Below are positions 6,907 to 64,000 of a DNA stretch of 64,000 bases, piece after piece. Source of the stretch: Bacteroidia bacterium (GTDB lineage: Bacteria; Bacteroidota; Bacteroidia; B-17B0; Aurantibacillaceae); assembly GCA_016787445.1 (NCBI GenBank), contig JAEUTQ010000055.1:1-64000 (forward strand). Reading direction: 5' to 3'. The notes beneath the pieces are model-generated. The model ran no database searches, was not told the origin of the DNA, and saw only the letters and a program-made list of their open reading frames with translations. A program made the position numbers and the translations under genes. The first letter of the stretch is position 1, and each line of letters starts with the position of its first letter.

Positions 6907-6911
6907 AAAAC

Positions 6912-7715
6912 ATGAAACTGAATTTAACGCGCCCTTTGGCATTTATTGATTTGGAAACTACAGGTGTGAATGTGGCCAGTGATCGAATAGTTGAAATTTG
7001 CATTTTAAAAGTGAATACCGATAATAGTACGGAAGTTAAAACCATGCGTATCAATCCGGGAATGCCTATTCCTGAAGCCTCATCGCGTATTCATAAAATT
7101 TACGATAACGACGTAAAAGATTGTCCCGCGTTTAAACAAGTAGCTGCACAACTCGCGAATTTTATTGGTAATGCCGATATAGCAGGATACAACTCGAACA
7201 AATTTGATGTGCCTTTACTGCTTGAAGAATTTTTGCGCGCAGAGGTTGACTTTGATTTATCGAACCGCCGGTTAATAGATGTGCAGAATATTTTTCACAT
7301 CATGGAACCGCGCACATTGGCTGCTGCGTATAAATTTTATTGCGATAAAACAATAGAAAACGCGCACAGTGCAGAGGCTGATATAAAAGCAACATACGAA
7401 GTATTTTTAGCACAACTCAAAAAATACGAAAACACAGAAGTAACCGACGCGAAAGGCAATTTAGTTAAGCCTGTAAAAAACGACATGCAAGCATTAAGTG
7501 AACTGACCGCTAAAACAAAAAATGCAGACTTAGCAGGCAGAATAATTTTCAATGACGCCGGTGTTGAAGTTTTTGCATTCGGAAAACATAAAGACAAACC
7601 GGTTGTAGAAGTTTTTGAAAAAGAACCTTCGTATTACAGTTGGATGATGAATGGTGATTTTCCGCTGTACACCAAAAAAATCATAACGCAGATACGGTTA
7701 CGTATGAAGAAATAA
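6912..7715 (+). CDS. DnaQ-like 3'-5' exonuclease with C-terminal DUF3820-like domain
   Basis: A 267-residue DEDDh exonuclease. The metal ligands are Asp13 and Glu15 (FIDLETTG, Exo I), Asp99 (YNSNKFDVPLL, Exo II), and His152 and Asp157 (HSAEADIKATYEV, Exo III). Residues 215-267 (FAFGKHKDKPVVEVFEKEP ... WMMNGDFPL) form a second small domain like DUF3820, found fused to exonucleases in Bacteroidota. The family covers DNA polymerase III epsilon-like proofreading and RNase T-like trimming; there is no clamp-binding motif I can identify. It lies directly behind ispH. Activity is well supported; the substrate is not. Confidence 0.9.
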   Translation: MKLNLTRPLAFIDLETTGVNVASDRIVEICILKVNTDNSTEVKTMRINPGMPIPEASSRIHKIYDNDVKDCPAFKQVAAQLANFIGNADIAGYNSNKFDVPLLLEEFLRAEVDFDLSNRRLIDVQNIFHIMEPRTLAAAYKFYCDKTIENAHSAEADIKATYEVFLAQLKKYENTEVTDAKGNLVKPVKNDMQALSELTAKTKNADLAGRIIFNDAGVEVFAFGKHKDKPVVEVFEKEPSYYSWMMNGDFPLYTKKIITQIRLRMKK

Positions 7716-7856
7716 GCTGCCTAAAATTTTAGATTTAGCTGTATTTCATAGATTCACATTCCAATTCCGACCACTTATTAAGTCAAACCACGCTTTGGCA
7801 TGTTTCTTGCTTGCTTTTTACGGTGCTTTTTCTATATTTACTGTAAGCCTTTTATT

Positions 7857-10800
7857 TTGAGATTTGTAAAATACATACTTCTATTATTTTGCATTGCATT
7901 CACGCTTAATCTACGATCCCAAACTTATTGGGCACATGCCAGCGGTGGAAATAATGTAGACGAGGCAATGGATGTTGTGCATGATGCTTCAGGTAACATT
8001 TACAGTACAGGATATTTCACAAACAATGCATCATTCGGTTCATTTTCATTAAATAGTACAAGTTCCGGAATTCCGGATGGATATATTTATAAGTCCAATG
8101 CGTTTGGTCAAATTCAATGGATACAAAAATTTGGAGGTAACGGATCAGACCGTGGTTTATCCATTCGTGTCGACAATTCAGGCAACACCTACATTTGCGG
8201 TTATTATTACGGTACAGCAACATTTGGCACTTTTACGCTTTCATCTGTAAGCGCATCACAAGATGTTTTCATTGCTAAAATTGATCCTTCCGGTAACTTT
8301 TTATGGGTTCGTTCGTGTGGTGGCAACATGACGGATATTCCCAGTGCACTTGCTATCGACAATAATAACGATGTAATTGTAACAGGGTCTTATCAAGGCG
8401 TAGCCGTTTTCGGAACTACTACATTCACAAGTATTAATAATCCTTCAACCAGTATTCCGTCGTATGATGTGTTTACTGTTAAATATTCCACCACCGGAAA
8501 TTTCTTATGGGCAAAAGACGGAAATGCTAAATATACCGACAGAGGATTGGATGTTGTGACAGATGCGTTTGGTGATATTTATGTATGCGGTCAGTTTTCT
8601 GATACGATACTTTTTGACAACGTTCATAATAATCAAATTATGAATGCCGTTTTTTTGATTAAGTACACATCGGCCGGAAATGAAGTTTGGTTAAGAAAAG
8701 CAAGTGCTACCAGTTCTATTGCCTATGCCCTCGCGGTAAACAGTGCGAACGAAGTTTATATGGCCGGTGATTTTACCGGAACTATGGGGTTTTACGGAAC
8801 AACAAATAATTTTCTAACGGGGAATTATGCCAACCGTATTTTCCTCGTCAAGTATGATAAAAACGGAACCTATCTTATTGGCCAATCCAGCAGCTCTAAA
8901 AATTATTTATCGGCCAGAAATCTCGCCATAGATAATATAGGGAATGCCTACATCATTGGTGAATTTGGCTGTACCTTAAATGATTTTGCAGATGCAACTG
9001 CACAGGGATTATTTAACAGCGTTGGATACGCTGATATTTTCGTTGCCAAATATTTATCCGGTAATTTCACACGTGATTGGATGCGTCAGATTGGAGGACC
9101 CGCAAAAGATGAAGCTCATGGTATAACATTAATCGCAAACGACGTTCCTGTTATCGCCGGGAGTTACGAGAGAAAGTTAAGCTATCCAATGAAGAATACA
9201 CCTTTTACCACTTATACTGTTTTTCCTTCTACAAAAAACCTTTCCAATTTAGCTTACTATCAATCTTCTTTTTATTGCACTAATTCATTTTATAGCGATT
9301 ATATGAGCATCAGCAGTACGGGCTTTTGTGATGCTTTCGTAGGCAAGATTTTTGATTTATCATTAGAGCCCTATGATTACTATATCAGAGGAATAAGTGG
9401 TTGTAATCGCAGTTTTATTAAGAGTTGTATTAGCACCAGCTCAATTAGTGCTTGTATGGATACAATTAAATATTGCGGACAAGGTAAAATAAGTTGCAAT
9501 ACTAATACAGGAGATCAGGGCACAATCGGACCTTATCATAAATTTCTATGGAGCAATGGAGACACAACACAAACCACTTTTCAATGGATAACCAGTTCGG
9601 GTTACTACCATGTTAACGTTACTACCATGGATGGATGCTATAACAGCAAAGACACTGTTTATGTTGAAATAAATCCCAAACCCACTTCGCCACACATAAC
9701 AGATACTAAAGGATTCAATTTTAAAAAATATCCTGCCACCAATAAAATTAAAATGTGCCATCCTGATACAGTAAAAATCACAGGTGGGGATATTAAAGGA
9801 AATAGTTTTGTTTGGACTGCATTGTCGGGTGGTCCGTTTCTCTCATCACCCGACTCAAGTATTATCACTAACAAGGGTGGATTATATCAATTAATGGTTA
9901 CCACACCTAAAGGATGTTCTGCAATAACAACTGTAAGTGTTCAACTGGACTCTATTAAACTTATTAAACCGAAGATTAATCTTCCTGATACAGTAGTTAT
10001 GTGCTGTGGAACTTCTACAATTGTTAATCTATATGACAGCATATCCAATCCTATTGGCAATAACAATTGTATAGGAATCATTGATACTTTAAAATGGTAT
10101 GTTACACCGGCAGGTGCGACGATGGGCACATTAAATAACTGTAATAAACCGGAAGATGGTATATTCAATACATGTAACACCGGAACATATACTATAACGG
10201 CTATTATAAAAATTAATAATTTATGTGGGGTTCAAACTTATACTGCAACTAAAGTAGTTTATGCAAAAATAAATCCCAAACCACCAGTTACCTTAACTTA
10301 TAGTGGGCCAACGCAATTTTGTCCTGGCGATAGTATTAAAGTAATCATTAATCATAACAATCCCATTCAATGGAATATATTTGGATCTATTAACGCTTCA
10401 AATCAAACAAAAGATACTGTTTGGATAAAAATTCCGGGGTTTTATCAAATTACATCTACAAGTACTTCCTCTGCAGGCTGTACAACAACCAATTTTTTAA
10501 ATCTGAATTTTACAGTTAAACCAAATCCATTTCTTAGTGTTTTCCCAAAATTAATTTGCCCGAATGATTCTGTTAAGATAACATGTAATACCAGCGGTGC
10601 TGTAAACTATCAATGGATTGGCCCAGGTGGACCTATTTCCGGTAATACGCAATTTATTTACGTAAAAACTCCCGGCTTTTATCATTGCATAGTTACAGAT
10701 GCGACGGGTTGTGTTTTAACTTCAAACACTGTTGAAGTAAAAGTATACAATACACCTTACCTCATGGCAAATCCTTCAAGTATATTTTGTTTGGGTGGCT

Positions 10801-19046: not shown

Positions 19047-21149
19047 ATGCCCAAACACCTTATACTTTTACTCGTTTACTTCTTTTTTGGAAGCTCCGGA
19101 CTGTTCGCGCAAAACAGAACTGTTGACTCACTCAAAAAAGCCCTTAATATTTCGAAAAACGACACCAACAAGGTTAAATTATTAAATGCCCTTTCCTACG
19201 AGGTTTATGTGAGCACCGAAAAATCGACCGACGAAGTAAAAAACTATATCGATTCGGCCATAGCGCTTTCCGAAAAATTGAATTACCTGAAAGGAAATTT
19301 ACGCGCCCGATTTAATGCAGGTAACATATTTAGCAACACAGGAAAAAACGATATCGCCAAAAAATACCTGAACGACGCTTTGCCTTTATGCGAGAAATTA
19401 AAAAGCGACGATGATTTTTTTAGAATACTCAATACACTTGGCAAATGCTATAACGAAGAAGGTAATTATAAACAAGGTGCCGAATATTATTACAAAGCGC
19501 TACACTATGCCGAAAAAACAACTAACAAACGATTTCTGGCTACTTCTTACAATTCATTGGGAAATATTTTCAGCACACAAAAAGAATACGCTAAAGCTAT
19601 TCATTACTTTTCAAAAGCCTTACGGTATAATACGGAGGCCGACGATAAACTCAAAATGTCTTTTAACTATTTAAACCTTGGTAATACTTACTCCAGCTTA
19701 AATCGGTACGACTCTGCAATATACTTTTATAACAAAGCGCTCGGTATTCAAACCAAACAAAAAAACATTGTCGGACAAGCTTACAGCTATAACAACATCG
19801 GATTTATTTACTTTAAAAAAAATGAACCCTCGGCCGCATTAGATTATTATAAACGGGCCTATGCCATTGCTAAATCTTCGGAAGATGCCGACTTATACTC
19901 TTCCGTTTTACTCCGCATGGGCTCGGCCTATCTTAAAATGAATAATATTGAAGAAGCCCTGAAATATTACACAGAAGCGGAAGATTACACGCGAAAAGCA
20001 AAATGGACTTCAGAACTCTCCGAAGCATTGGCCGGCTTATCTAAAATTTATCGCCTGAAAGCCGATTATAAAAAAGCGCTGGACTATTATACCGAACATA
20101 AGGTCATAAAAGACTCTATGAATAATGCAGAGGTAGGAAAAAAATTATCTTCACTCGAATACAACTATCAAATTGAGCAGGATAAAAAAATTACCGAACT
20201 CGAAAATGAAAAAACCAGATTGAAACACGAAGAAGAAGTAAACCGACAGCGCATCATCATTTGGAGTATTTCCATTTTCTTACTCGTGGTATTTGTACTT
20301 TCCATTTTTATTTACAAAGCCTACAAACAAAAAGAAGCGGCTAACAAAATCATCAGTTCGCAAAAAAGCGAAATGGAAAAACAAAAAAACATTGTAGAAG
20401 AAAAACAAAAAGAAATTCTTGATTCTATTAATTATGCCAAACGCATTCAATACGCCCTTCTCGCCCACTCCGATTTTTTGCAAACGGCCCTTCCGCAACA
20501 TTTCATTTTATTTAAACCAAAGGATATTGTAAGCGGCGACTTTTACTGGGCTATCGAACACAATCATTTAATTTATGTGGCAGTTTGCGATTGTACCGGA
20601 CATGGCGTACCCGGTGCGTTTATGAGTGTACTTAACATTGGTTTCCTTAACGAAGCCATCAAAGAAAAAAACATTACACAACCCAACGAGATCTTTAACT
20701 ATGTACGCAAAAAATTAATCGAAAATCTTTCACAAGAAGAACAAAAAGACGGTATGGACGGCGTATTGATTTGTATCGACAAGCAAAATAAAAAAATAAA
20801 TTATAGTGCCGCCAATAATGCGCCCGTATTCATCAACAATCATACACTTCAGGAATTAGATAAAGATAAAATGCCGGTAGGAAAAGGTATCATCGAAAAA
20901 CCATTTACACTTTACAGCTTCAACTACAAGGAAGGCGATATGCTTTATATTTACACCGATGGTTATGCCGATCAGTTTGGCGGACCCAAAGGAAAAAAAT
21001 TCAAATACCGTCAGTTAAATGACTTACTTTTAAAACTGCATTCGCAAACAGCATTACAACAAAGAAATGAACTCGAACAAACCATTGCATCCTGGAAAGG
21101 GGAATTGGAACAAGTGGATGATTTATGTATAATGGGAATAAAATTTTAA
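19047..21149 (+). CDS. Membrane TPR sensor with SpoIIE-type PP2C phosphatase
   Basis: 700 residues. A signal peptide (1-21) precedes a periplasmic TPR array with an exact 40-residue period (LGK131, LGN171, LGN211, IGF251, MGS291). A coiled coil, one membrane helix (about 403-423) and a second coiled coil ending DSINYAKRIQYALL follow. The cytoplasmic phosphatase (about 480-700) has the PP2C metal aspartates in SGDFYW (Asp498), CDCTGHG (Asp515), TDGYADQFGG (Asp638) and VDDLC (691-692). By family it would remove phosphate from Ser/Thr of a STAS-like anti-anti-sigma factor. First of three genes with gaps of 4 and 1 nt. Confidence 0.9.
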   Translation: MPKHLILLLVYFFFGSSGLFAQNRTVDSLKKALNISKNDTNKVKLLNALSYEVYVSTEKSTDEVKNYIDSAIALSEKLNYLKGNLRARFNAGNIFSNTGKNDIAKKYLNDALPLCEKLKSDDDFFRILNTLGKCYNEEGNYKQGAEYYYKALHYAEKTTNKRFLATSYNSLGNIFSTQKEYAKAIHYFSKALRYNTEADDKLKMSFNYLNLGNTYSSLNRYDSAIYFYNKALGIQTKQKNIVGQAYSYNNIGFIYFKKNEPSAALDYYKRAYAIAKSSEDADLYSSVLLRMGSAYLKMNNIEEALKYYTEAEDYTRKAKWTSELSEALAGLSKIYRLKADYKKALDYYTEHKVIKDSMNNAEVGKKLSSLEYNYQIEQDKKITELENEKTRLKHEEEVNRQRIIIWSISIFLLVVFVLSIFIYKAYKQKEAANKIISSQKSEMEKQKNIVEEKQKEILDSINYAKRIQYALLAHSDFLQTALPQHFILFKPKDIVSGDFYWAIEHNHLIYVAVCDCTGHGVPGAFMSVLNIGFLNEAIKEKNITQPNEIFNYVRKKLIENLSQEEQKDGMDGVLICIDKQNKKINYSAANNAPVFINNHTLQELDKDKMPVGKGIIEKPFTLYSFNYKEGDMLYIYTDGYADQFGGPKGKKFKYRQLNDLLLKLHSQTALQQRNELEQTIASWKGELEQVDDLCIMGIKF

Positions 21150-21153
21150 GGGC

Positions 21154-22497
21154 TTGAAAAAACTTTTTATACGCATTACTGAAATTGGCATTCGTCCCGA
21201 AATGCCGGAAGAAATTAAAGAGCAAGTAAAACTCGTGAATGGAATCAGCTTTTTAGGTGTGCCCATTAGTGTTTTATTTGTACTGCTATTCGGTATAACC
21301 GGACATTTTTATATTGCCCTTACATTTATTGGCGGTTTAATCATTTTTTCATTGCCATTTTTGCTCATTAAAACCATGGGCTTAAATGCGGCCCGTAATT
21401 TTGTGTGTGCGATGGCTCCTGTTGTATTTGGCACTGCATCGGTAGTGAGTGGAAAAGACACCGGTTTCTTTCTCGGATTTTTAGTGATCTCCGTTCCGCC
21501 TATCATCGTTTACCCAAAATCGAAACAAGCACTCGCGTATATTATTTTATGTGTTCTATTACTCGCGCTTTCCATTGTAGGCAATGTATTTATTAAACCC
21601 ATCGATACCGTACCCTTTGCGATGGCAATATTTTTGTTTAATCTTTTCATTGTTCTAACCACAAGTATCGGCATTGTGTTTTTATTTAAACTCGAGTTAA
21701 ATGAAGGTCGCGAAAAACTCGCCGAAAAAAATAAAGAAATCACCGACAGCATTAACTACGCCAAAAGAATTCAGTCGGCTTACATGCCATCACCCGAAGT
21801 ATTTCATCGCGCGTTTAGCAATGCCTTTTTATTCTTTAAACCAAAAGACATAGTAAGCGGCGATTTCTATTGGTTTTTTGCCGTACAAAAAGAAAGCACT
21901 AAAAATTATGTTCGCTTTTGTGCGGTAGCTGATTGTACCGGACACGGCGTACCCGGCGCCCTCATGAGTGTGATTTGCTGTAATGCTTTAAATGAAGCGG
22001 TGGTAAACAATAAAATTCATGATACGGAAAAAATACTGGATGAAACACGAAGGTTGGTAAAACAGAATTTAAAAAGCGCGGGTACCGGACAAAAAGATGG
22101 AATGGATATTGCGCTCATAAAAATAGATGATGATACGCATGAACTTTGGTATTCGGGAGCCAACAATCCGGCGTGGATATTAAAAGGAAATGAAGTACTG
22201 GAATTAAAAGCCGATAAACAGCCCATAGGTGCGCATACCAACGAAAAAGAATTTACGTCACAGTATGTACAGCTAAATAAAGATGATATTATTTATTTGT
22301 TCAGTGATGGTTATGCTGATCAATTTGGCGGACCCAAAGGAAAAAAATTCAAGTACAAACAATTGAGTGAATTGCTGCAATCTAATAAACATAAGTCCAT
22401 GCAGGATCAACATAAGCTATTAGAAGAAACATTACATCACTGGAAAGGCAGTTTAGAACAAACCGACGATGTGTGTGTAATTGGAATAAAGATATAA
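21154..22497 (+). CDS. Six-helix membrane SpoIIE-type PP2C phosphatase
   Basis: 447 residues starting at TTG 21154, 4 nt after the preceding stop. Instead of TPRs it has about six membrane helices (roughly 31-50, 54-72, 84-99, 103-120, 127-146, 155-178) with very short loops, so any signal is probably sensed in the membrane. A short coiled coil and DSINYAKRIQSAYMP lead into the phosphatase domain: SGDFYWFF, ADCTGHGVPGALMS, KDGMDIAL, YSGANNPAW, SDGYADQFGGPKGKKFK and TDDVCVIGIKI. All metal aspartates are present. Output is as for its neighbours; the stimulus is unknown. Confidence 0.9.
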   Translation: MKKLFIRITEIGIRPEMPEEIKEQVKLVNGISFLGVPISVLFVLLFGITGHFYIALTFIGGLIIFSLPFLLIKTMGLNAARNFVCAMAPVVFGTASVVSGKDTGFFLGFLVISVPPIIVYPKSKQALAYIILCVLLLALSIVGNVFIKPIDTVPFAMAIFLFNLFIVLTTSIGIVFLFKLELNEGREKLAEKNKEITDSINYAKRIQSAYMPSPEVFHRAFSNAFLFFKPKDIVSGDFYWFFAVQKESTKNYVRFCAVADCTGHGVPGALMSVICCNALNEAVVNNKIHDTEKILDETRRLVKQNLKSAGTGQKDGMDIALIKIDDDTHELWYSGANNPAWILKGNEVLELKADKQPIGAHTNEKEFTSQYVQLNKDDIIYLFSDGYADQFGGPKGKKFKYKQLSELLQSNKHKSMQDQHKLLEETLHHWKGSLEQTDDVCVIGIKI

Positions 22498-22498
22498 A

Positions 22499-24619
22499 GT
22501 GAACTTAAAAAAAATACTCCTTAGCATTTGCGCGCAATTCATTTTGCTTGGTTTCATCATGGCCCAAAAATCAACTTTGGATTCATTAAAAGAAGAGTTG
22601 AAAAAACCCATGCACGATACTTTAAAATTTAAAGTGTTGTATGATGTGTGTCATCAGTTCTATATCTCCTCGGCAAATGAATCGGACAACTACCGAAAGC
22701 AACTCTTACAATTAAGTCATGCGATTAATAAAACTTATCATTTAGCACGAGCGTATGAAATGAATGGCTTATTGTGGACCATGCTCAACAATAACGATAG
22801 CGCCTTACATTATTTGAATAAGGCTTTGGTGTTTGCTGAAAAAGGAAAACACGACATGCAAATTGCCGACATATACGACGCTTATGGTTCGGTGTATGAG
22901 ATTGCCGGTGATTACGATCTCGCGCTCGAAAAACATTTAAAAGCCCTCAACATTCACGAAAAAGCACAAGATAAAACAGGAATGGCCAATTCCTACAAAT
23001 ACATCGGACGCATTTTTGGCATTCAGCAAAAATTCACACAAGCCCTCTCCTACTTTAATAAATCGAAAGAAATAGATAAAGAAACCAATAACATTTATGC
23101 ATACGGACAATCCATTAACAATGCCGGAATATGTTTACTGAATCTGAATAAAATTGATTCGGCTATATTATGCCTTAACGAATCCATCAAAGCGAAAACA
23201 CAAACCGGTAATAAAAAAGGATTAATTAGCACTTACTCGTATTTAGTGGACGCGTATTTAAAAATCAACGACACAAAAAATGCAATCAATACATCACTCA
23301 CCTTAACAAAATTAGCTGAAGAGTTAAACAACAACCTTGCATTAGCCGCGGCCTACGAAAAAACAGGTGAAGTGTATTCGGCCATTAAGCGTCCTATTAT
23401 TGCAAAATCCAATTATATAAAAGCCCTTCAAAATTATACCATAGCGCAAAAGAAAGAAGGCATTATGAATTCGCATCTGAATTTAAGTAAAGAATATAAA
23501 AAATTAGGCGTGCTCGATTCGTCGCTACATCATTTAAATGAATACGTGGTTTTAAAGGACTCCCTCTTTACCGAAAACAATACCAAATCCATCAGTGAGA
23601 TGGAAGCCAAATATCAAAATCAGAAAAAAGAATTGGAAATTTCTATGTTACAGAAAAACAAACAAATTGCCGATTATGAAATTTCAAAACAAAAAACCTT
23701 CCGTAATTTTTTATTGGTCATAGCCATATTAGTTTTTGTAACGGTGATTGTATTGTTTAAAGCTTATTCCAATAAAAAAATCGTGAATAAACAGCTCACC
23801 TTAAAAAATACAGAAATTGAAAATCAGAAAGAGATTATAGAAATAAAACAAAAGGGTATTACCGACTCCATCAATTATGCCCTACGTATTCAGGAAGCGT
23901 TGTTACCAAGCAAGGAAATGAAACAAACACTGTTTCCGGAATCATTTGTGTTACTATTACCAAAAGACATTGTGAGTGGCGATTTTTATTGGTACTCCGA
24001 AAAAAACGGAAAGAAAATTATTACTGCGGTGGATTGTACCGGACATGGCGTACCCGGTGCCTTTATGAGTATGATAGGCGTTACGTTTTTAAATGAAATT
24101 ATTAACGAGCGCGGCATTACAAAACCATCCGACATATTAGGCGAATTACGTGATCGTGTAAAAACCTCCTTAAAACAAAAAGGATTAGATGGTGAGAGCA
24201 GAGATGGTATGGACATGGCCATTGTATCCTTCAATAAAGATTTTACCGAAGTAGAATATGCCGGTGCCAATAATCCACTTTGGATATTTAGAAGAGAAAA
24301 TAACAACGTAAAAATTCTAGAATTTGCGCCCGATAAAAGACCTATAGGTTATTTTAAAGGACAAGGTTTGCCATTTACCAATCAAACTATTTCTTTACAA
24401 AAAGGCGATACACTTTACATTTTCAGCGATGGTTATGCCGATCAATTTGGCGGACCAAAAGGAAAAAAATTCAAATACAAGCAAATTAAAGAAATTCTGG
24501 CCGAGATAAATCACCTGCCTATGCACGCGCAAGAAGAGCATTTATTAAAACGCTTTGTAGAATGGCGCGGCAATTTAGAGCAGATTGATGACGTATGTAT
24601 TATCGGTATTTCTGTTTGA
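22499..24619 (+). CDS. Membrane TPR sensor with SpoIIE-type PP2C phosphatase
   Basis: 706 residues, GTG start one base after the preceding stop. Signal peptide 1-22, TPR array on a 40-residue period (YGS130, IGR170, AGI210, LVD250, TGE290), membrane helix about 402-420, coiled coil and DSINYALRIQEALLP. The PP2C core carries Asp495 (SGDFYW), Asp512 (VDCTGHG), Asp644 (SDGYADQFGG) and Asp697-698 (IDDVC). Same architecture as the gene at 19047 but clearly diverged in the sensor, so the three genes of this operon probably read different inputs and share an output. Confidence 0.9.
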   Translation: MNLKKILLSICAQFILLGFIMAQKSTLDSLKEELKKPMHDTLKFKVLYDVCHQFYISSANESDNYRKQLLQLSHAINKTYHLARAYEMNGLLWTMLNNNDSALHYLNKALVFAEKGKHDMQIADIYDAYGSVYEIAGDYDLALEKHLKALNIHEKAQDKTGMANSYKYIGRIFGIQQKFTQALSYFNKSKEIDKETNNIYAYGQSINNAGICLLNLNKIDSAILCLNESIKAKTQTGNKKGLISTYSYLVDAYLKINDTKNAINTSLTLTKLAEELNNNLALAAAYEKTGEVYSAIKRPIIAKSNYIKALQNYTIAQKKEGIMNSHLNLSKEYKKLGVLDSSLHHLNEYVVLKDSLFTENNTKSISEMEAKYQNQKKELEISMLQKNKQIADYEISKQKTFRNFLLVIAILVFVTVIVLFKAYSNKKIVNKQLTLKNTEIENQKEIIEIKQKGITDSINYALRIQEALLPSKEMKQTLFPESFVLLLPKDIVSGDFYWYSEKNGKKIITAVDCTGHGVPGAFMSMIGVTFLNEIINERGITKPSDILGELRDRVKTSLKQKGLDGESRDGMDMAIVSFNKDFTEVEYAGANNPLWIFRRENNNVKILEFAPDKRPIGYFKGQGLPFTNQTISLQKGDTLYIFSDGYADQFGGPKGKKFKYKQIKEILAEINHLPMHAQEEHLLKRFVEWRGNLEQIDDVCIIGISV

Positions 24620-54855: not shown

Positions 54856-57800
54856 TTAAATTTTTACACCGATTACACAAACGTCATCAACCTGTTCGTG
54901 TTTACCTCTCCAACTTACAAAAGCTTCTTCTAATAAATCGTGTTGGTCTTTCATTGGCATGTGTGCTATGGTTTGAATCAACTTTTGTAGTTTCTTAAAC
55001 TTGAATTTTTTTCCATTCTCACCACCAAACTGATCCGCATAACCATCTGTTAACACGTAAACCTGATCACCTTTTTGCAATTGAATGACGTTATCATTAA
55101 ATACTTTGTTTCCGGTTAAGTATCCGCCAATAGAGTGCTTACTTGGTTTGTATTCGATTAACTCTCCATCGCGAATTAATAATAGCGGTCGGTGGGCACC
55201 GGCAAATTGCATAATCATTTGGCTAGGATGATACGCGCAAAGAGCAATATCCATACCATCGTTCGAAGAGTGATCAGAACTCTTATTCAACATGGCACGT
55301 AAACGCTCGTCTAATACTGTAAGCGCGTGAGCCGGTGTAGTTACGTTTTGATCCTTGATAACTTGATTCATCAAATCGTTACAAATTAACGACATGAAAG
55401 CGCCCGGCACACCATGACCGGTACAATCCGCAGCGGCGAATACTGTTACATTATTCTTAAATACTTCTATCCAATAGAAATCACCACTAACGATGTCTTT
55501 AGGCCGGTAGTACACAAAACTTTCAGCAAATGCAGTAGTTAATAAATCAGTATCCGGCATTAATGCCAATTGAATTTTCTTAGCGTAACGAATACTATCG
55601 GTGATATCTTTATTCTTCTCTTCGATAATCGCTTTTTGCTCGAACACTTCTGCTGTACGCTCTTTCACTTTCTCCTCGAGATTTTCGTAAAGTGCGGCAT
55701 TATCCAAAGCAATTCCTATGGATATAGCTAAACTCTTTAAAATATTTAAATGATATTCAGTATAGGCGTTTACTTCAAAACTTTGCACAGTTAAAACGCC
55801 AATCACAATTTCCTTAGAATATATTGGTAAATATATGATAGAGGCTGAGTCCTTTCCTGAAACCGGCGCTTGAATACCTTTAATATAATTAACGTATTCT
55901 ACAGCGTAATTATTAATGAAAATTTCTCGCCTATTAGTAAATGAAATAGCCGCGAGTCGATTTGGATCATTAGCCGGATAACCGAAATCATCCATCAATT
56001 GATCATTCTCTACAAAACCTTTAAACTCCAAGAAACCATTTGAAGGATTAAACATCCCGATTCCAAAACAATCCGCACGTAAAAGTTTATTTACATTCTT
56101 ATAAACTTTTGAAATAATAGTTTCAACAGAGAGAGAAGAGCTTATATCTTCAGCAATTTCGCTCAGTAACTTAGTGTCGTTATAATTCTTTTCAATTTCC
56201 TTGGTTCGCTCCTCAACACGCTCTTCCATGTTTTCATATAAAGAAGCGTTATCTAAAGCAATGCCGATGTGAACCGCTAGGTTTTGAAGAATATTTAAAT
56301 GGTAATCGGAATAAGAATGTGTTTTAAAACTTTGCACAGATAATACACCAAGTTTTTTATCCTTTCCGTAAATAGGAAGGAAAATCATGGAAAGCGTATC
56401 ATCGCCAACCGCTGCAACATAATCTTGCTTAATATATTTTGTATGTTCAACCGGATAATCGTTAATCAATAATTCCTTCTCATTGTTGAAACACCATACA
56501 CCAATCGTATCATCGCTTAAAGAATAAGAAAAGTCATCCAGTTTTTTACCACGCTCCATTGTTCCTGTAAACACTAAGCGCTGTTTTTCCTCGCTATATA
56601 AACCAATCGCAAACACGGAAGCATCCATTAATGTATTTACATTCGAGTATACCTTTTCTATTACCTCATCTACAGATAAAGTAGACGTGATATCTTTACC
56701 AATTTGTCCAAGTAAACGCGTATTCTCGTAGGTCTTTTCAATTTCCTCTTTTTGTTTCACTACTTCCAGAGTTCGCTCCTTTACTTTCTCCTCCATGTTT
56801 TCATAAAGAGAAGCATTTTCGAGGGCAATGGCTATATAAGAAGCAAGAGTTTTCAAAATATCAAGATGATGCTCCCTATAAGCAAATTTCTCAAAACTCT
56901 GAATAGTTACTACACCGAGTACTCTCTCCTGCATCATAATGGGGTAGAAAATTAACGAGTGTGGCATATCACCACTTACAACCTTAATTTGCTTTACGTA
57001 CTTTTTATATTCGTTAAGATTATCGTTCAGGAATATTTCCTTTTTGTTTTTAATACACCAAACCGAATAATTATCATCATCATCCATTGACACGGAAGCA
57101 ACACTGTGATACTTTTCTCCGCGTTCAATACCATATTTGTACTCTACAACATTCTTTTCAGGATGGTATAAGCGAATACCAAAACAATCGGCATTCATGA
57201 GTTGATTAACGTAGTAATGTAACTTGTCAAAAATCTCCTCGAAATTTAAAGTAGAAGTAATCTGCTGACCAATTTCACTTAATAATTTACTGGTTTGATA
57301 AGCTTTTTCAATTTCCTCCTTTTGAACGACAACCTCCTTCGTTCTTTCGGCAATTACTTTTTCTTGTTGTTCATACAAGGCTGCATTATCGAGAGCAATA
57401 GCCATATATACAGCTAAACTCTTTAAAAGTTGCATGTGATAGTCGCTGTACGCATCACGTTCAAAACTTTGTACAGTAACAACACCAATACGTTTATCCT
57501 TTTGTGTAATCGGAACGTATATAATACACTCCGGATTTTCACCGGCCTTTGCCTGATAATCTGTTACTTTCTTACTCTTAACGAATTCATCGTTAAAGTT
57601 GTTAATCTTATAATCTTGTTGTGTAGTATAACACCAAACGGCAGGTCGGTCTGTGGAATTTATTGAATAAGCAAAATCAGATAATTTCACACCTTTTTCA
57701 ATCACACCTTTAAACACTAATTGTTTTGAAGCTTCATCATAGATACCAATTCCGAAGGCAGTGGCATCCATTAATTGATTAATGTGCTTATAAACTTTAC

Positions 57801-60111
57801 TGATAATCTCCTCCGTAGAAAAGGTACTTGTTATTTCGCGACCAATCTGACTTAATAACTTGGTATTATCGTTATTCTTTTCAATTTCTTCTTTCTGCTT
57901 CACAACCTCCAGCGTACGCTCTTTTACTTTTTCTTCGAGATTTTCATAAAGAGAAGCGTTTTCAAAAGCAATAGCAATATAACTGGCCAGAGTTCTTAAT
58001 GTATCCAGATGATGTTCTTTGTATGCGTTTCTTTCGAAGCTTTGGATGGTGATAGCACCCAACACTTTCTCGCCATACATTATCGGATAGAAGATTAAGG
58101 AATGGGTAAGATCGCCACTAATTACATTAATTTGCTTAACATATTTAGTATGCTCCTTAATATTATCATTAATGAATATTTCTTTTTTGTTTTTGATACA
58201 CCATACCGAGAAGTTATTATCGTTGTCCATCGACACGGTATCAACGGTATTACATTTAACACCTTTTTCGATGCTGAATTTATATTCAACTAAATTTTTA
58301 TCGGGGTGATAAATATCGATGCCGAAAACAGTAGCATCCATTAATCGGTTTACGTAACTGTAAAGCTTATCAAAAATCTCCTCGAAATTTAATGTTGATG
58401 TAATTTCACGGCCTACTTCACTTAATAGCTTATTATTTTGATAAGCTTTTTCAATTTCTTCCTTTTGTGAGATTACCTCGCGTGTACGGGCAAAAATAGT
58501 TTTCTCTTGCAATTCATAAATCTGCGCATTATCAAGCGCTATTGCCGCGTAAGATGCAAGATTGCGTAAAATGTTTAAATGATATTGTGAATATGAATTT
58601 GCGTTAAAGCTTTGTACCGTTATAACCCCTACTGTATTACCTCGAACATTGAGCGGTAAATAAATAATTGAACTAACAGCCTTTCCAAAAGATGGGGCTA
58701 CATAATTTTTAAAATAGAGGTGATATTCCTTACTGAAATCATTAATAACGATTTCGCGTTTGTTAACAAAACAATTTACCGTTAGTTTTTCGGTATCCTT
58801 TACATCGTAGGTAAGGTCTTTGAATTTTTCATCCCCTTCTATGTAGAGAGGGAAAATCACTTGCTGCTTTTTAGCATCAAACAATCCGATACCAAAACCG
58901 GCAGCATCCATTAAATTGTTGACACTGTCATAAACCGTTTCTACAATTTCAGCAACAGTATGCTGTGAAATAATTTGGTGTCCGATTTCGCTAATCAAAA
59001 CAAGATTGTTGGAGTAACTCTCAAGTTCTTTCGCTTTTTCTTCCAGCAATAATTTCTCGGCTTGTGATTGCAACATTTTGTGTTGCATCTCAACACTCTT
59101 TACGAGCTGATTTGTTTTCTCGTTACGAACTTCTTCGCGTGTGGATTGAAATATTTTATAATACTTAATCGCTAAATCCAATTTGCCGGATTTTTCAAAA
59201 GCTTCGGCTAACTTTTCACTGGCTTTGTAAACGCCTTCTTTAGAATGAATTTTTTGTGATAATTCGAAAGATTGCTCTAAAAACTTTACGCCCTCCGCTA
59301 AATCACCCTTTTCGATATACAACACACCAATGTTGTACAGTGTAATAATTTCTCCTGCCTTAAATCCAAGTTCGCGACGTAAATTCAGACTTTCATTAAA
59401 TTTATCAAGTGCATCCTGATATTTTTTTGTTGCCGAATACGTGCGGCCCAAACCATCCAGAGCAAATGCCGCAACTTGCTTATTTCCTGTAGTTGCGCAG
59501 ATAGATGCACATTTGTTATAATGCTCAAGTGCTAACTCGTACTTTTTTAAATTGTGATAGGTCTCTCCTAATCCATCCAATACCTTCACGTAAATTTCTT
59601 TATCGTTATGTTTAAGACAAAGCTTTTGACTTTCCAGTAAAACTTCAAGTGATTTATCGTTTTTCTCGATGGAGTAATAAACTGTTCCCAATCCATTTAA
59701 TCCATCCGCCATTCCCATTTCATCACCAATCTGATTATTGATGCTATAACATTCGTTGTAATATTTTATGGCTGAATCGTAATCGGAAAGGTATCGGAAG
59801 TTAGCGCCTACATAATAATAAGTTTCGGCTTCATTCTTTTTGTCACCAAGTTCATTGAAGATAGCAATGGCCTCAAATAAAGTCGTGAGCGCTTCCTCAT
59901 TTTTAGAAATCCAAACTTGTGAAGTGCCAAGTGTTTTTAAAGCATGTGCAATTCCGCGCTTGTAATCGATTTCTTTGGATTTTGTAAGTGCTTCAGTACT
60001 TAACTCTATGGCCTTATACGCATCCTTTCGGTTTAGCGACCAAGCTTTTGAATTCAACTCATCAATTGCGAGCGTATCTATTTGTACTAAAGTATCTTGC
60101 ATTACAATCAT
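54856..60111 (-). CDS. Cytoplasmic TPR / six-GAF / SpoIIE phosphatase
   Basis: 1751 residues, no signal peptide or membrane helix. Residues 50-330 are TPRs on an exact 40-residue period (LGT61, VGA101, LGT141, LGE181, LGR221, IGV261). Six GAF domains follow at about 383-530, 572-722, 762-912, 952-1102, 1142-1292 and 1323-1474, each joined by a coiled-coil linker of the ERTxEVVxQKEEIEK type. A final helix DSIRYAKKIQLALMP leads to a PP2C domain with SGDFYW, ADCTGHG, TDGYADQFGG and VDDVC. GAF domains commonly bind small molecules or mediate dimerisation; none shows a cysteine I can assign to a chromophore. The ATG at 60102 is an alternative start. Confidence 0.92.
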   Translation of the reverse strand: MIVMQDTLVQIDTLAIDELNSKAWSLNRKDAYKAIELSTEALTKSKEIDYKRGIAHALKTLGTSQVWISKNEEALTTLFEAIAIFNELGDKKNEAETYYYVGANFRYLSDYDSAIKYYNECYSINNQIGDEMGMADGLNGLGTVYYSIEKNDKSLEVLLESQKLCLKHNDKEIYVKVLDGLGETYHNLKKYELALEHYNKCASICATTGNKQVAAFALDGLGRTYSATKKYQDALDKFNESLNLRRELGFKAGEIITLYNIGVLYIEKGDLAEGVKFLEQSFELSQKIHSKEGVYKASEKLAEAFEKSGKLDLAIKYYKIFQSTREEVRNEKTNQLVKSVEMQHKMLQSQAEKLLLEEKAKELESYSNNLVLISEIGHQIISQHTVAEIVETVYDSVNNLMDAAGFGIGLFDAKKQQVIFPLYIEGDEKFKDLTYDVKDTEKLTVNCFVNKREIVINDFSKEYHLYFKNYVAPSFGKAVSSIIYLPLNVRGNTVGVITVQSFNANSYSQYHLNILRNLASYAAIALDNAQIYELQEKTIFARTREVISQKEEIEKAYQNNKLLSEVGREITSTLNFEEIFDKLYSYVNRLMDATVFGIDIYHPDKNLVEYKFSIEKGVKCNTVDTVSMDNDNNFSVWCIKNKKEIFINDNIKEHTKYVKQINVISGDLTHSLIFYPIMYGEKVLGAITIQSFERNAYKEHHLDTLRTLASYIAIAFENASLYENLEEKVKERTLEVVKQKEEIEKNNDNTKLLSQIGREITSTFSTEEIISKVYKHINQLMDATAFGIGIYDEASKQLVFKGVIEKGVKLSDFAYSINSTDRPAVWCYTTQQDYKINNFNDEFVKSKKVTDYQAKAGENPECIIYVPITQKDKRIGVVTVQSFERDAYSDYHMQLLKSLAVYMAIALDNAALYEQQEKVIAERTKEVVVQKEEIEKAYQTSKLLSEIGQQITSTLNFEEIFDKLHYYVNQLMNADCFGIRLYHPEKNVVEYKYGIERGEKYHSVASVSMDDDDNYSVWCIKNKKEIFLNDNLNEYKKYVKQIKVVSGDMPHSLIFYPIMMQERVLGVVTIQSFEKFAYREHHLDILKTLASYIAIALENASLYENMEEKVKERTLEVVKQKEEIEKTYENTRLLGQIGKDITSTLSVDEVIEKVYSNVNTLMDASVFAIGLYSEEKQRLVFTGTMERGKKLDDFSYSLSDDTIGVWCFNNEKELLINDYPVEHTKYIKQDYVAAVGDDTLSMIFLPIYGKDKKLGVLSVQSFKTHSYSDYHLNILQNLAVHIGIALDNASLYENMEERVEERTKEIEKNYNDTKLLSEIAEDISSSLSVETIISKVYKNVNKLLRADCFGIGMFNPSNGFLEFKGFVENDQLMDDFGYPANDPNRLAAISFTNRREIFINNYAVEYVNYIKGIQAPVSGKDSASIIYLPIYSKEIVIGVLTVQSFEVNAYTEYHLNILKSLAISIGIALDNAALYENLEEKVKERTAEVFEQKAIIEEKNKDITDSIRYAKKIQLALMPDTDLLTTAFAESFVYYRPKDIVSGDFYWIEVFKNNVTVFAAADCTGHGVPGAFMSLICNDLMNQVIKDQNVTTPAHALTVLDERLRAMLNKSSDHSSNDGMDIALCAYHPSQMIMQFAGAHRPLLLIRDGELIEYKPSKHSIGGYLTGNKVFNDNVIQLQKGDQVYVLTDGYADQFGGENGKKFKFKKLQKLIQTIAHMPMKDQHDLLEEAFVSWRGKHEQVDDVCVIGVKI
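55612..58998 (-). repeat. Six coding repeats of about 570 bp (GAF plus coiled coil)
   Basis: Equivalent residues (MDA/MNA/LRA before the central strand) recur at about 401, 591, 781, 972, 1162 and 1345, a period of 190-191 residues that shortens at the last unit. Units 2 and 4 are most alike (both contain SVWCIKNKKEIF and HSLIFYPIM). This suggests that a two-unit block was duplicated. Confidence 0.88.
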
Positions 60112-60218
60112 GTAAGATACAATATTTATCTAAAAAGTCCAGCGTCTTAAATTGATTTAAAACACTGTATTTCAAATACTTAATTATTCGTCTGTTAAAA
60201 AGGATGTTACGCCACTAA

Positions 60219-62363
60219 TCATAGTACCAATCCCGCAATACACACATCATCTACTTGCTCGAGTGAGCCACGCCATTTTTCGAAAGTATTATTCAAAATT
60301 TCTTTCTTCTCATTAGAAGATTTATGGTTAATCTCTGTAATTAATTGCTCTAATTGCTTATGCTTGAATTTTTTTCCTTTTTCGCCGCCAAATTGATCAG
60401 CATAACCATCGGTAAATAAATACAAACGATCACCCTTTGAATAGGATATGTTGTGTGTTGTAAAATCATCTTTCCTTTCTCCAATACCTATCGGCATTTT
60501 ATCGCCGGGTAATTCTAAAGCACCGTTTGAAGTCATGAGTAAAGGTTTATTATTGGCAGCAGCGTAAGAAATTTCGCCCGAAACCTTATCTACGCAAATT
60601 AAAACTCCATCCATTCCGTCCTTTTGCGCTTCCGCCGACATATTAGAAATTAATTTAGCGCGAACATAATTAAATATATCCCCGGGTTTCTCAATGCCCT
60701 TCTCTACAATTGCTTCATTTAATAAAGAAGCATTCAGCAAACTCATAAATGCTCCGGGAACACCGTGCCCCGTACTATCACACACCGCAAAATAAAAACG
60801 GCTTTCCTTTTTCGTTGCCCAATAGAAATCACCACTCACAATATCTTTGGGTTTGTATAAAATGAAATAATCATTAAGCTCCTGATTCAAAAATGCATCA
60901 TGTGCCAATAAAGTTTTCTGAATTTTTTTTGCGTACTGAATAGAATCAACTATTTCCTTTTGTTTTTCCTCCACCAATGTTTTTTGCTTCTCAATAATTT
61001 GCTTTTGCTCTTGAGAAATTTTATAGCGGCTGTACATGAAAGCTGCAAACACAATTACAAGAAGTAAACCTCCATACAAAAAATACCTACGGGTTTTTTC
61101 GTTTTTCAACTCTGCCTGAATTAATATTTTTTGCTCGTGAGCGCGTAAACTATCAGCGGCAGCTTTTTTAGTGTAATCAAATTCGAATTGCTTTTGCGCT
61201 ATTTCACGAATACGTTCAGCACTGTTTAAAGTATCACGAATTGAAATGAAACGCTCAAAATAAGGTAATGCCTTTGCGGGATTTTTAAGAGCCGTATGCG
61301 CGTAGTACAAACATTTACACGCATCACGGATTTCACCATCCGATTGAATTTTCTCAGCAATCGTCAAGCTATTTTCACACAGTGTTACGCCTTTGGCAGG
61401 ATCACCCAATTTAATGGCACAGTTTCCTAAACCCATTAAAGCAACTGCTTCATTTCTTTGTTCTCCAATTTCACGCGCCAAATTTAATGCCTCCGAAAAA
61501 TATTTCACTGCGTTGTTGAAATGAGCCGTTACTTCTTCTTTAGGTTTATTTTCGCGTTCTGCTGTATATCCGAACTCCGCATTTAAGCTGCCTAAGCTCA
61601 CCAAAGAAAGCACGATTCCATCCTTCTCTCCAATTTCCTTCCTTAAGTCGAGTGATTTTAACTGATAGATTAATGAAATTTTTAAATCACCTTTTTCCTG
61701 ATAAAGATTACTGATGTTACTGTAATTGCTGGCCATTCCGGATTTGAAACCCGTCAAGCTATCCATCTGCAAACTCTTGACAAAATATTTAATAGAGTTT
61801 TCATAATTCTTTTGAATGCCATAAATAATTCCAACATTCCCTAAGGCAATTGATTGCGCTTTCTTATCGCCCATTTCCTCTACCACCTTCAAACTTTGAA
61901 AATAAAAATCCAATGCCAATGGATAATCACCTTTATCTAAATAAACATTTCCAATATTATTATAGGTTTTACCCAGTAAAGTTTTTGCAAAAACCTTTAG
62001 CGTTGTGTCTTGTCCGAATATTAATGCTTTCAGCTCAGTAACACTCTCACTATAGTTATCGATAGCTAATTTATATTCTCCCTTCACATAATAACTTAAT
62101 GCAATGTTGTTACGCGCGCCGACTTCAAATTTTTTCAATCCACGCTCCTTACTGAATTGCAGCAACTGATTGGAAAGAATTAATGTGGTATCAGGATTAT
62201 TAAACGCTAAACGACGCGAATAGACATGCATGGCCATAGCGCGAACCGTGTCGTGCTTTGAGGCGTTATTCCATGTTGTGATAAGACTATCCTGACCTTG
62301 CAACTTACTCTCGTTAACAAAAGTCAGAGTTAGAATTAGAAAAATATATTTTAATAATGACAC
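60219..62363 (-). CDS. Membrane TPR sensor with SpoIIE-type PP2C phosphatase
   Basis: 714 residues. Signal peptide (1-24, ending LQGQ), periplasmic TPRs (IALSYYVKGEYKLAIDNY, IGNVYLDKGDYPLALDFY, VGIIYGIQKNYENSIKYF, LGNCAIKLGDPAKGV), one membrane helix about 427-445, coiled coil, DSIQYAKKIQKTLL. The PP2C core has Asp512 (SGDFYW), Asp529 (CDSTGHG, Ser replacing the Cys seen in most paralogues), TDGYADQFGGEKGKKFK and VDDVC. It starts 9 nt after the upstream phosphatase stop (62373), so the two are an operon; a 107-bp gap separates it from the six-GAF gene. Confidence 0.9.
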   Translation of the reverse strand: MSLLKYIFLILTLTFVNESKLQGQDSLITTWNNASKHDTVRAMAMHVYSRRLAFNNPDTTLILSNQLLQFSKERGLKKFEVGARNNIALSYYVKGEYKLAIDNYSESVTELKALIFGQDTTLKVFAKTLLGKTYNNIGNVYLDKGDYPLALDFYFQSLKVVEEMGDKKAQSIALGNVGIIYGIQKNYENSIKYFVKSLQMDSLTGFKSGMASNYSNISNLYQEKGDLKISLIYQLKSLDLRKEIGEKDGIVLSLVSLGSLNAEFGYTAERENKPKEEVTAHFNNAVKYFSEALNLAREIGEQRNEAVALMGLGNCAIKLGDPAKGVTLCENSLTIAEKIQSDGEIRDACKCLYYAHTALKNPAKALPYFERFISIRDTLNSAERIREIAQKQFEFDYTKKAAADSLRAHEQKILIQAELKNEKTRRYFLYGGLLLVIVFAAFMYSRYKISQEQKQIIEKQKTLVEEKQKEIVDSIQYAKKIQKTLLAHDAFLNQELNDYFILYKPKDIVSGDFYWATKKESRFYFAVCDSTGHGVPGAFMSLLNASLLNEAIVEKGIEKPGDIFNYVRAKLISNMSAEAQKDGMDGVLICVDKVSGEISYAAANNKPLLMTSNGALELPGDKMPIGIGERKDDFTTHNISYSKGDRLYLFTDGYADQFGGEKGKKFKHKQLEQLITEINHKSSNEKKEILNNTFEKWRGSLEQVDDVCIAGLVL

Positions 62364-62372
62364 TTTGCAAAT

Positions 62373-64000
62373 TTAGATTTTTACTCCAACAATTGTAACA
62401 TCATCCACCTGCTCCAAATCGCTTTTCCATTTCTCCAGGGAAGTTTGGAGAATGCTTTTTTGAACATCCATTGGAAGTTGAGAATTCTCTAAAATTAATT
62501 CCTTAAGATTTTTGTACTTAAACTTTTTACCTCGCGGACCACCAAACTGGTCGGCAAAACCATCCGTTATGAGGTAAATTGAATCTCCCTTATTTATATT
62601 AATTTCTTGTGTCGTAAATGGTGTATTATGGATAAATTTTCCAACCGGCTGTTTGTCGGCTTTGTATTCCACCAATTGATTGTTTGAAATTACCCAAGCA
62701 GGATTATTTGCCCCGGCCCATTTCAGTTCGGTTATTTGATTTTCTTTATTAAAGGTAATCGCAACTAAAGATATATCCATCCCATCCTTCACTTCACTAC
62801 TACTCTTTTCAAACGTTTCGATAACAAACTCACGAACCTGGTCGAGGATCTTTCCCGGATCTTTCAATTTAAATTCATTGACAGCGCGATTTAGCGCATT
62901 ACTGCAAACCACACTTACCATAGCGCCAGGCACACCATGTCCGGTACAATCAGCTGCAGCTAAAAGCAAAGTATCACCCACTTTATTAAGCCAATAAAAA
63001 TCACCTGCTACAATATCCTTAGGTTGATACAAAATAAATGATTCAGGAAAATAATGGCGTAAACTGGCCAATGGCGGCAATATTGCTTCCTGAATTTTCT
63101 TAGCGTATTCAATAGAGTCAAGAACTTCTTTTTTCTTCTCTTCAATGATGGCTTTTTGGTTCTCCACCTCTCGTTTCTGCTCTGATATAATAATAGTTTT
63201 TTTCTTGTTTTCGCGTAAATTCCTGTATATAACAATAGAAAATATAAAAATGATTAAAAACCCAAGTGTAATTACAACGCTGGTAATTTTTTGCCGTTTT
63301 AATTCAGCTTCCTGTGCCTTTTTCTCCCCTAAAAGTGTAAGTTCCTTTTTATCATGTTCTGCCTTTAGCCTGTCTTCTTTTAATTTACTTTCCAAGTCGG
63401 CAAACTTTTTAATTTGTGGTTTGTTAGTAAGGCTATCATTTAATTGAGTGTGCAGCTTATGGTATTGAAAAGCCTTCTCAAAATTTCTCTTTGTTTCATA
63501 CACTTTATATAAGCGACTATAAACATCAAGCACTAAGGTCAAAAACTGATTTTCCTTCGCGATTTCCAGCGCCATTAAAGAATATTTCTCAGAGTTAATA
63601 AAATCATTCTTAGCAAATGAAATTTCAGACAGATTAATATAAGCTTCAGCTTTTAAACTCGGATCCTCTTCCGGAAATTTTGAATTAATAACCTCATCCA
63701 CGAATACTTTCGCTTTATCGAATTGCTTCATGGAATTATAAACTATTGCTTTACTAAGAGTATTCCGTATTATTTCATATTCATGCTCATTTTTCCCAAT
63801 GGATACATAATACTCACTTGATTTGTCAAAATATTTTAAAGCGTCTTCATATTTATTCTGTTGAAAATACATGTAGGCTATGGATGCTGACGTATAGGCT
63901 TCTTGATAAGGATAGTCTGCCTTTTGAGCATAATCAATCGACTTAAACAAATACTCTTCCGCCTTTTTAAATTCACCTTTAGTTGAATAAATTTCTCCTA
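62373..64000 (-). CDS. TPR / SpoIIE-type PP2C phosphatase, 5' end outside the window
   Basis: The frame is open to the right edge. TPRs (GEIYSTKGEFKKAEEYLFKS, YFQQNKYEDALKYFDKS, FAKNDFINSEKYSLMALEIA) are followed by a coiled coil, one membrane helix (VVITLGFLIIFIFSIVIY), a second coiled coil and DSIEYAKKIQEAILPP. The phosphatase core has AGDFYWL, ADCTGHGVPGAMVS, TDGFADQFGGPRGKKFK and VDDVTIVGVKI; a Thr replaces the Cys after DDV. It is first in a tight operon with the gene at 60219-62363. Signal peptide and first TPRs are not visible. Confidence 0.88.
   Translation of the reverse strand, partial: GEIYSTKGEFKKAEEYLFKSIDYAQKADYPYQEAYTSASIAYMYFQQNKYEDALKYFDKSSEYYVSIGKNEHEYEIIRNTLSKAIVYNSMKQFDKAKVFVDEVINSKFPEEDPSLKAEAYINLSEISFAKNDFINSEKYSLMALEIAKENQFLTLVLDVYSRLYKVYETKRNFEKAFQYHKLHTQLNDSLTNKPQIKKFADLESKLKEDRLKAEHDKKELTLLGEKKAQEAELKRQKITSVVITLGFLIIFIFSIVIYRNLRENKKKTIIISEQKREVENQKAIIEEKKKEVLDSIEYAKKIQEAILPPLASLRHYFPESFILYQPKDIVAGDFYWLNKVGDTLLLAAADCTGHGVPGAMVSVVCSNALNRAVNEFKLKDPGKILDQVREFVIETFEKSSSEVKDGMDISLVAITFNKENQITELKWAGANNPAWVISNNQLVEYKADKQPVGKFIHNTPFTTQEININKGDSIYLITDGFADQFGGPRGKKFKYKNLKELILENSQLPMDVQKSILQTSLEKWKSDLEQVDDVTIVGVKI

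Follow-up and report, generated by a model that had tools for sequence, protein, structure and literature searches.

A TPR-(GAF)6-SpoIIE phosphatase from a Bacteroidia genome, with a sensor array built of heterotypic GAF pairs

Linker-controlled dimers of PPM phosphatases have been modelled, and the tandem-GAF phosphatase RsbZ is among them (PMC12143880). The protein studied here is encoded in the window, i.e., the whole stretch of 64 kb of DNA that was analysed, and it resembles RsbZ of Clostridioides difficile in being soluble and in having N-terminal GAF domains with a coiled-coil linker to the SpoIIE/PPM domain. However, RsbZ has two GAF domains and no TPRs, and no iterated pair array is reported for it in the accessible text (PMC12143880). 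There is also a likeness to RsbU and RsbP of Bacillus subtilis, in which a partner switch is activated by a PPM phosphatase with a helical linker leading into it. Their sensor domains, however, are of other kinds, and two phosphatases serve one RsbV there, compared with about 50 candidates here.

The window gene is located at 54856..60111 on the minus strand, as are all its parts given below; it starts with ATG and encodes 1751 amino acids. Pfam finds TPR_12, six GAF_2 stretches (E 3e-88 over the whole protein) and a single SpoIIE domain at residues 1556-1750, which scores 69.5 bits with PF07228 against a curated cut-off of 25 and is placed by that score in the SpoIIE/PPM family. The TPR region (residues 1-330, 59122..60111) has its sequence relatives in the PDB among the TPRs of LGN/Pins, and its three highest self-match offsets are 40, 80 and 120. 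No transmembrane segment was found in the protein, the maximum Kyte-Doolittle mean over 19 residues being 1.49. An earlier note on this DNA had described a soluble chain of TPRs with a 40-residue period, six GAF domains and one PP2C domain. That description was borne out by these results and by AlphaFold2, in whose model six GAF-like units were found as they were by Pfam profile. The earlier note also knew of no named family with this architecture; neither Pfam nor NCBIfam has one for the full architecture, but the layout is not unique, as 20 of the 53 homologues described below have six GAF domains.

The AlphaFold2 model of residues 335-1505 (20 sequences) contained six separate GAF-like folds and long helices at a mean pLDDT of 79.0; with a pTM of 0.31, the folds are credible and the overall shape is not. 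The first GAF pair (51 sequences, pLDDT 78.6) was modelled as GAF folds on long helices. Several modelled inter-GAF helices were unbroken over about 60 residues, and the entry helix from the TPRs to GAF1 (residues 331-371, 58999..59121) was a single helix in both models. The solved folds nearest to the pair were the tandem GAF-A/GAF-B of PDE5, PDE6, PDE2 and CyaB2, and that nearest to a single GAF was Lcd1 with cAMP. A cyclic nucleotide was ruled out as ligand by the missing NKFDE motif, which is replaced by VQSF....Y..(Y/H)H in five matched window units; the Q and S of the replacement are kept at 95-100% in both of the unit classes defined below. The Cys of a WC motif is conserved, with 88% of the odd and 94% of the even units having it. 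In the window protein it occurs at residues 447, 638, 827, 1019 and 1207, on the helix preceding the IND strand, and is absent from unit 6. This near-invariant Cys may be a site for redox chemistry or for binding of a metal or ligand, or it may be structural.

The six GAF domains start at residues 372, 562, 752, 943, 1133 and 1315, i.e., at steps of 190, 190, 191, 190 and 182. The first four steps agree with the 190-residue clock proposed before, whereas the last is one heptad short. GAF1 (residues 372-529, 58525..58998; Pfam, unit tree, class assignment and AlphaFold2 model), GAF3 (752-910, 57382..57858; unit comparison, tree and class assignment) and GAF5 (1133-1289, 56245..56715; unit alignment) are of the odd class. 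GAF2 (562-719, 57955..58428; unit comparison, tree and class assignment), GAF4 (943-1100, 56812..57285; unit alignment) and GAF6 (1315-1472, 55696..56169; tree, class assignment and Cys check) are of the even class. A self-offset comparison peaked at 381 residues (32% identity) and not at 190 (22%), far above chance offsets, and this was the first hint of a repeat two units long. Identity between units is 39-47% for the GAF domains, with the exception of 71% for units 2 and 4, and 41-96% for the linkers, of which linkers 2 and 4 share 96%. The linkers are therefore more alike than the domains and units 2 and 4 stand out, in agreement with the earlier note. A recent duplication of units 3 and 5 is not supported, since their 47% is equalled by 3-6 and 5-6. 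Free divergence of each GAF is not supported either, as the GAFs keep to two classes that alternate strictly and do not exchange. As these comparisons and those with the homologues below show, the repeat unit is a heterotypic GAF pair and not the single GAF, and the window array consists of three odd-even pairs.

Eight congeneric genomes were searched, the window's own among them, and further homologues came from a family scan (87 genomes, with the identical 87 in an order-level scan), a class scan and a named-genome scan. With duplicates removed, the sample comprised 53 complete TPR-(GAF)n-SpoIIE proteins. The relatives are uncultured Bacteroidota MAGs, with titles that often name sludge, soil or groundwater, and some sequences are from Crocinitomicaceae and Flavobacteriales; nearly all are MAG assemblies, in which repeats are prone to misassembly. 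Among the congeners, one copy is 97% identical and another 62-73% identical, both with six GAFs, and four others have a frame of 1383 aa with four GAFs. A 386-aa glyoxalase-fold protein, which we take to be 4-hydroxyphenylpyruvate dioxygenase, lies downstream and adjoins most of the congeneric orthologues too, and an outer-membrane-type or a bestrophin-like protein adjoins several of them. These shared neighbours indicate a single locus in the genus, with an array of four or six GAFs. Within the searchable literature, no description of a TPR-(GAF)n-SpoIIE homologue was found, and no papers were found on GAF with SpoIIE in Bacteroidetes/Bacteroidota or on even-numbered GAF duplication.

The GAF number n was 2 (11 proteins), 3 (2), 4 (13), 6 (20), 7 (1), 8 (3), 10 (2) and 12 (1). 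It was thus even (2, 4, 6, 8, 10 or 12) in 50 of the 53 homologues, which share descent so that the counts are not independent, and the three odd arrays go back to two single-unit losses. A tree built from the parts outside the repeats (TPR and SpoIIE) required 15 changes of the count, of which just two were by one unit. On a tree of 256 GAF units, from which the seven-GAF L121 was excluded, index parity required 2 changes, as against 86 on average, and never fewer than 73, when labels were permuted within proteins. Relatedness was controlled for by placing control index labels on the same tree, where blocks of two required 37 changes and index mod 3 required 46. The closest unit at another index had the matching parity for 251 of the 256 units, and with leave-one-protein-out assignment each of the 200 steps from one unit to the next alternated between classes in the 50 even-numbered arrays. 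A single clean odd/even split of the unit tree was rejected, because the even units form two clades and the odd units several; the term "two classes" therefore means that parity is kept and not that there are two clades. Parity was likewise rejected as a rule for all GAF-SpoIIE proteins, since L115, L173 and L123 break it and it is partial in other architectures.

Clean two-unit indels were found between related arrays. L094 and L095 correspond at 82-91% in units 1, 2, 3 and 6, with units 4-5 as the additional pair; between L087 and L088 the additional units are 8-9, and L092 versus L106 and L089 versus L090 gave the same pattern. Counts, unit tree and indels among the homologues all point to array growth by pairs, and the two-unit duplication step proposed in the earlier note is in this respect upheld. 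The eight-GAF L089 is the sister of L121 and has counterparts of its seven GAFs in units 1, 3, 4, 5, 6, 7 and 8, which indicates that L121 lost unit 2, and the three-GAF L107 and L111 align to units 1, 2 and 3 of four, which indicates loss of the last unit. The branches with single-unit losses are lengthened (0.40 and 0.42, compared with 0.1-0.18 for their sisters). In the four-GAF relatives, unit 2 is the orthologue of window unit 4 (84% identity) and unit 3 that of window unit 5 (76%). Window unit 6 shares 74% identity with its counterpart, unit 4, in the other congener that has six GAFs, compared with 52% for the last unit of the relatives. The arrays are therefore mosaics, and the duplication in the window array was not one simple event. 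Derivation of the six-GAF window array from the four-GAF form by one copied pair was ruled out, units 6 and 3 having other origins.

Several other loci were recorded during the survey. Directly after the seven-GAF gene of L121 (1077-6872, +), another TPR-GAF gene begins (6899-8584, +) and is cut by the contig end, a tandem gene duplication beside the odd array. In L124 (610-3117, -), a three-GAF SpoIIE protein without TPRs has units 1 and 3 that are 93% identical, apparently through very recent copying two positions apart. L128 (1933-4838, -), the same region as L206, is a two-GAF TPR paralogue with a frame change and in-frame stops, and its genome (G022) also carries an intact six-GAF copy. 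L178 (2-10999, -), from a distant Bacteroidota genome, has five tandem genes, of which the four longer ones encode two GAFs each and no SpoIIE domain.

Even counts could also have arisen by neutral expansion, through unequal crossing-over that needs similar sequence, so that parity would carry no function and the pairs would go back to an ancestral two-GAF start. We regard this explanation as a serious possibility, although not as a probable one. It is in agreement with the likeness of units two apart (mean 0.47, compared with 0.40 at one apart), with the 96% identity of linkers 2 and 4, and with the two-GAF forms present in several families, from which the ancestor may have been a pair. However, beyond a separation of 2, even and odd separations are diverged about equally (0.40-0.41), and homology alone would therefore not guard parity for long. 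Moreover, single-unit losses do occur, but just twice and each time on a lengthened branch, and the lone off-register linker of 210 sits at one such loss.

Linker length was taken by alignment from the last Ala (..ENA) of one GAF to the Gly (..EIG) of the next. The 210 inter-GAF linkers had 38 residues (139), 31 residues (70) or 27 residues (1), i.e., all except one were of exactly two lengths that differ by one heptad, and the sole off-register linker is the first one in L121, where unit 2 was lost. GAF cores in the same chains were 149-155 residues long, without heptad-like steps. After even units 72 of 80 linkers had 38 residues, and after odd units the two lengths were about equally frequent. 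An ERT-like signature ([AEK]RT) was present in 184 of the 210. In the window protein, linkers 1 (58429..58524), 2 (57859..57954), 3 (57286..57381) and 4 (56716..56811) are of the 38-residue type by alignment, and linker 5 (56170..56244) is of the 31-residue type, shorter by exactly one heptad. Linker 1 has the ART variant and the other four have ERT, which as a signature in an inter-domain helix marks the window linkers as S-helices. Of 105 linkers from GAF-SpoIIE proteins of other architectures, 97 were likewise 3 mod 7 and seven were 6 mod 7, which corresponds to a four-residue stutter. Among the non-TPR types, same-class steps were enriched at off-register linkers in a few cases; a link between off-register linkers and repeated classes was not adopted there, being post hoc with few confident cases.

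A conserved coiled-coil register had been claimed earlier, and the restriction of 209 of 210 linkers to 31 or 38 residues, together with the continuous inter-GAF helices in the AlphaFold2 models, supports it more strongly than the sequence reading alone had. A register rule was to be expected, since heptad dependence is already established for the linkers of LOV and phytochrome kinases (PMC6798134). What is new is the strictness of the linker register and its tie to the pair structure.

In the interpretation that we consider somewhat probable, the protein is a soluble sensor phosphatase with a heterotypic GAF-pair array on a parallel dimeric signalling-helix coiled coil and with STAS-directed output. 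Two chains would form a rod, with the GAF pairs (odd then even class) threaded on the parallel coiled coil, and the N-terminal TPRs probably recruit a partner. Ligand in one or more of the GAFs would alter supercoil or helix stability, and the change would travel along the in-register linkers to the S-helix that enters the PP2C domain (residues 1473-1505, 55597..55695, ENLEEKVKERTAEVFEQKAIIEE; helix 1118-1170 in the model). This exit helix would set the dimer/switch state of the PP2C domain. The phosphatase would then remove phosphate from the phosphoserine of the lone STAS anti-anti-sigma-like protein, against one RsbW-like kinase, and arrays would evolve as entire two-GAF cassettes are gained or lost. 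Inter-GAF coiled coils may be antiparallel in prokaryotes (PMC1592074), which counts against the parallel-dimer model.

A strong functional version, which we find doubtful, is that the even count is under selection because each GAF, together with its linker, reverses the coiled coil in phase or handedness. Signal would then pass only with odd/even cassettes and linkers of 3 mod 7, and arrays that lost one GAF may gain a linker stutter that restores phase; the 27-residue linker of L121 (31 minus 4) at the deletion of unit 2 would be an instance. Pairing would be selected in this version and a by-product of recombination under neutral expansion, which we rate as slightly more probable. The GAFs might also be mostly structural spacers, with the array setting the distance from the TPR partner to the phosphatase and ligand sensing being minor. 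The range of array length from 2 to 12 with conserved ends, and the conservation of linkers above domains, would fit such a role. However, many GAF core positions and the Cys are kept in about 90% of the units of both classes, which seems to be more than a spacer needs, and the two classes retain distinct signatures. We consider this explanation unlikely.

Nine motif positions of the SpoIIE/PP2C phosphatase (54859..55596), i.e., six metal-binding Asp and GHG, are intact in the window protein and invariant in all 53 homologues. The genome contains 50 SpoIIE domains, compared with one STAS protein and one RsbW-like kinase candidate, and the 87 family genomes contain 1-95 SpoIIE candidates each with mostly one or two standalone STAS proteins, SpoIIE counts per genome above 32 being candidate counts. 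The RsbV-like STAS protein (L130 1483..1830; C68:43470-43778) has 115 aa and the phospho-acceptor motif YMNSSGL, and the small RsbW-like ATPase (L131 1468..1878; C79:33004-33366) has a clear N box. A STAS protein with a phosphorylatable Ser and an RsbW-like kinase, the components of a partner switch, are thus both present and both unlinked to the window gene. The window itself carries two tandem groups of three SpoIIE phosphatase genes each (19047-24619, +, and 54856-63950, -), mostly TPR-SpoIIE paralogues of about 450-820 aa.

To our knowledge, all experimentally characterised bacterial SpoIIE/RsbU-type enzymes act on STAS domains. The simplest reading of the gene content suggests that a large number of sensor phosphatases feed into a single anti-anti-sigma-like protein. 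It is also conceivable, although rather improbable, that no anti-anti-sigma factor is the target and that this phosphatase belongs to a large set of enzymes whose dedicated substrates are not STAS proteins. Such a division would account for 50 SpoIIE domains beside one STAS protein, and for up to 95 candidates beside mostly one or two in relatives; SpoIIE-type enzymes may have substrates outside the reach of Pfam STAS models, and docking of substrates by PPM enzymes can be very specific (PMC11418112). On the other hand, the catalytic and GHG motifs are canonical, and the characterised enzymes are described as acting on STAS domains (PMC11418112). With STAS-directed output, tens of such phosphatases to one STAS protein would make the fan-in extreme among bacterial partner switches.

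Signal passage through long sensor chains has mostly been inferred from engineered linkers. The homologues form a natural series on one chassis, with 2-12 GAFs, two linker lengths and two alternating classes. With these homologues, and with the few natural rule-breakers that have a linker off register, the coiled-coil register model can be tested on variants that occur in nature.

Among other known systems, SiaA is a membrane protein without GAF domains. The window phosphatase can be aligned with it over 275 residues (NF038263, E 2e-58; PDB 6k4e, E 7e-36), but the SiaA equivalog NF038263 scored 198.6 bits against a cut-off of 700, and on the phosphatase part alone. A heterotypic GAF pair on helices is shared with PDE2, PDE5, PDE6 and the cyanobacterial CyaB2, which differ in having a single pair, the NKFDE motif, and a cyclase or phosphodiesterase output. 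Cyanobacteriochromes are also regularly spaced multi-GAF chains for which heptad-dependent linkers have been proposed in signal integration (PMC6798134); however, they are bilin photoreceptors with other outputs, and no parity rule is mentioned for them in the accessible text of that source. The linkers are like the S-helix, a helix of about 40 residues with an ERT signature between signalling domains (PMC1592074). Inter-GAF helices are treated separately there, as poorly conserved, whereas the inter-GAF helices described here repeatedly carry ERT.
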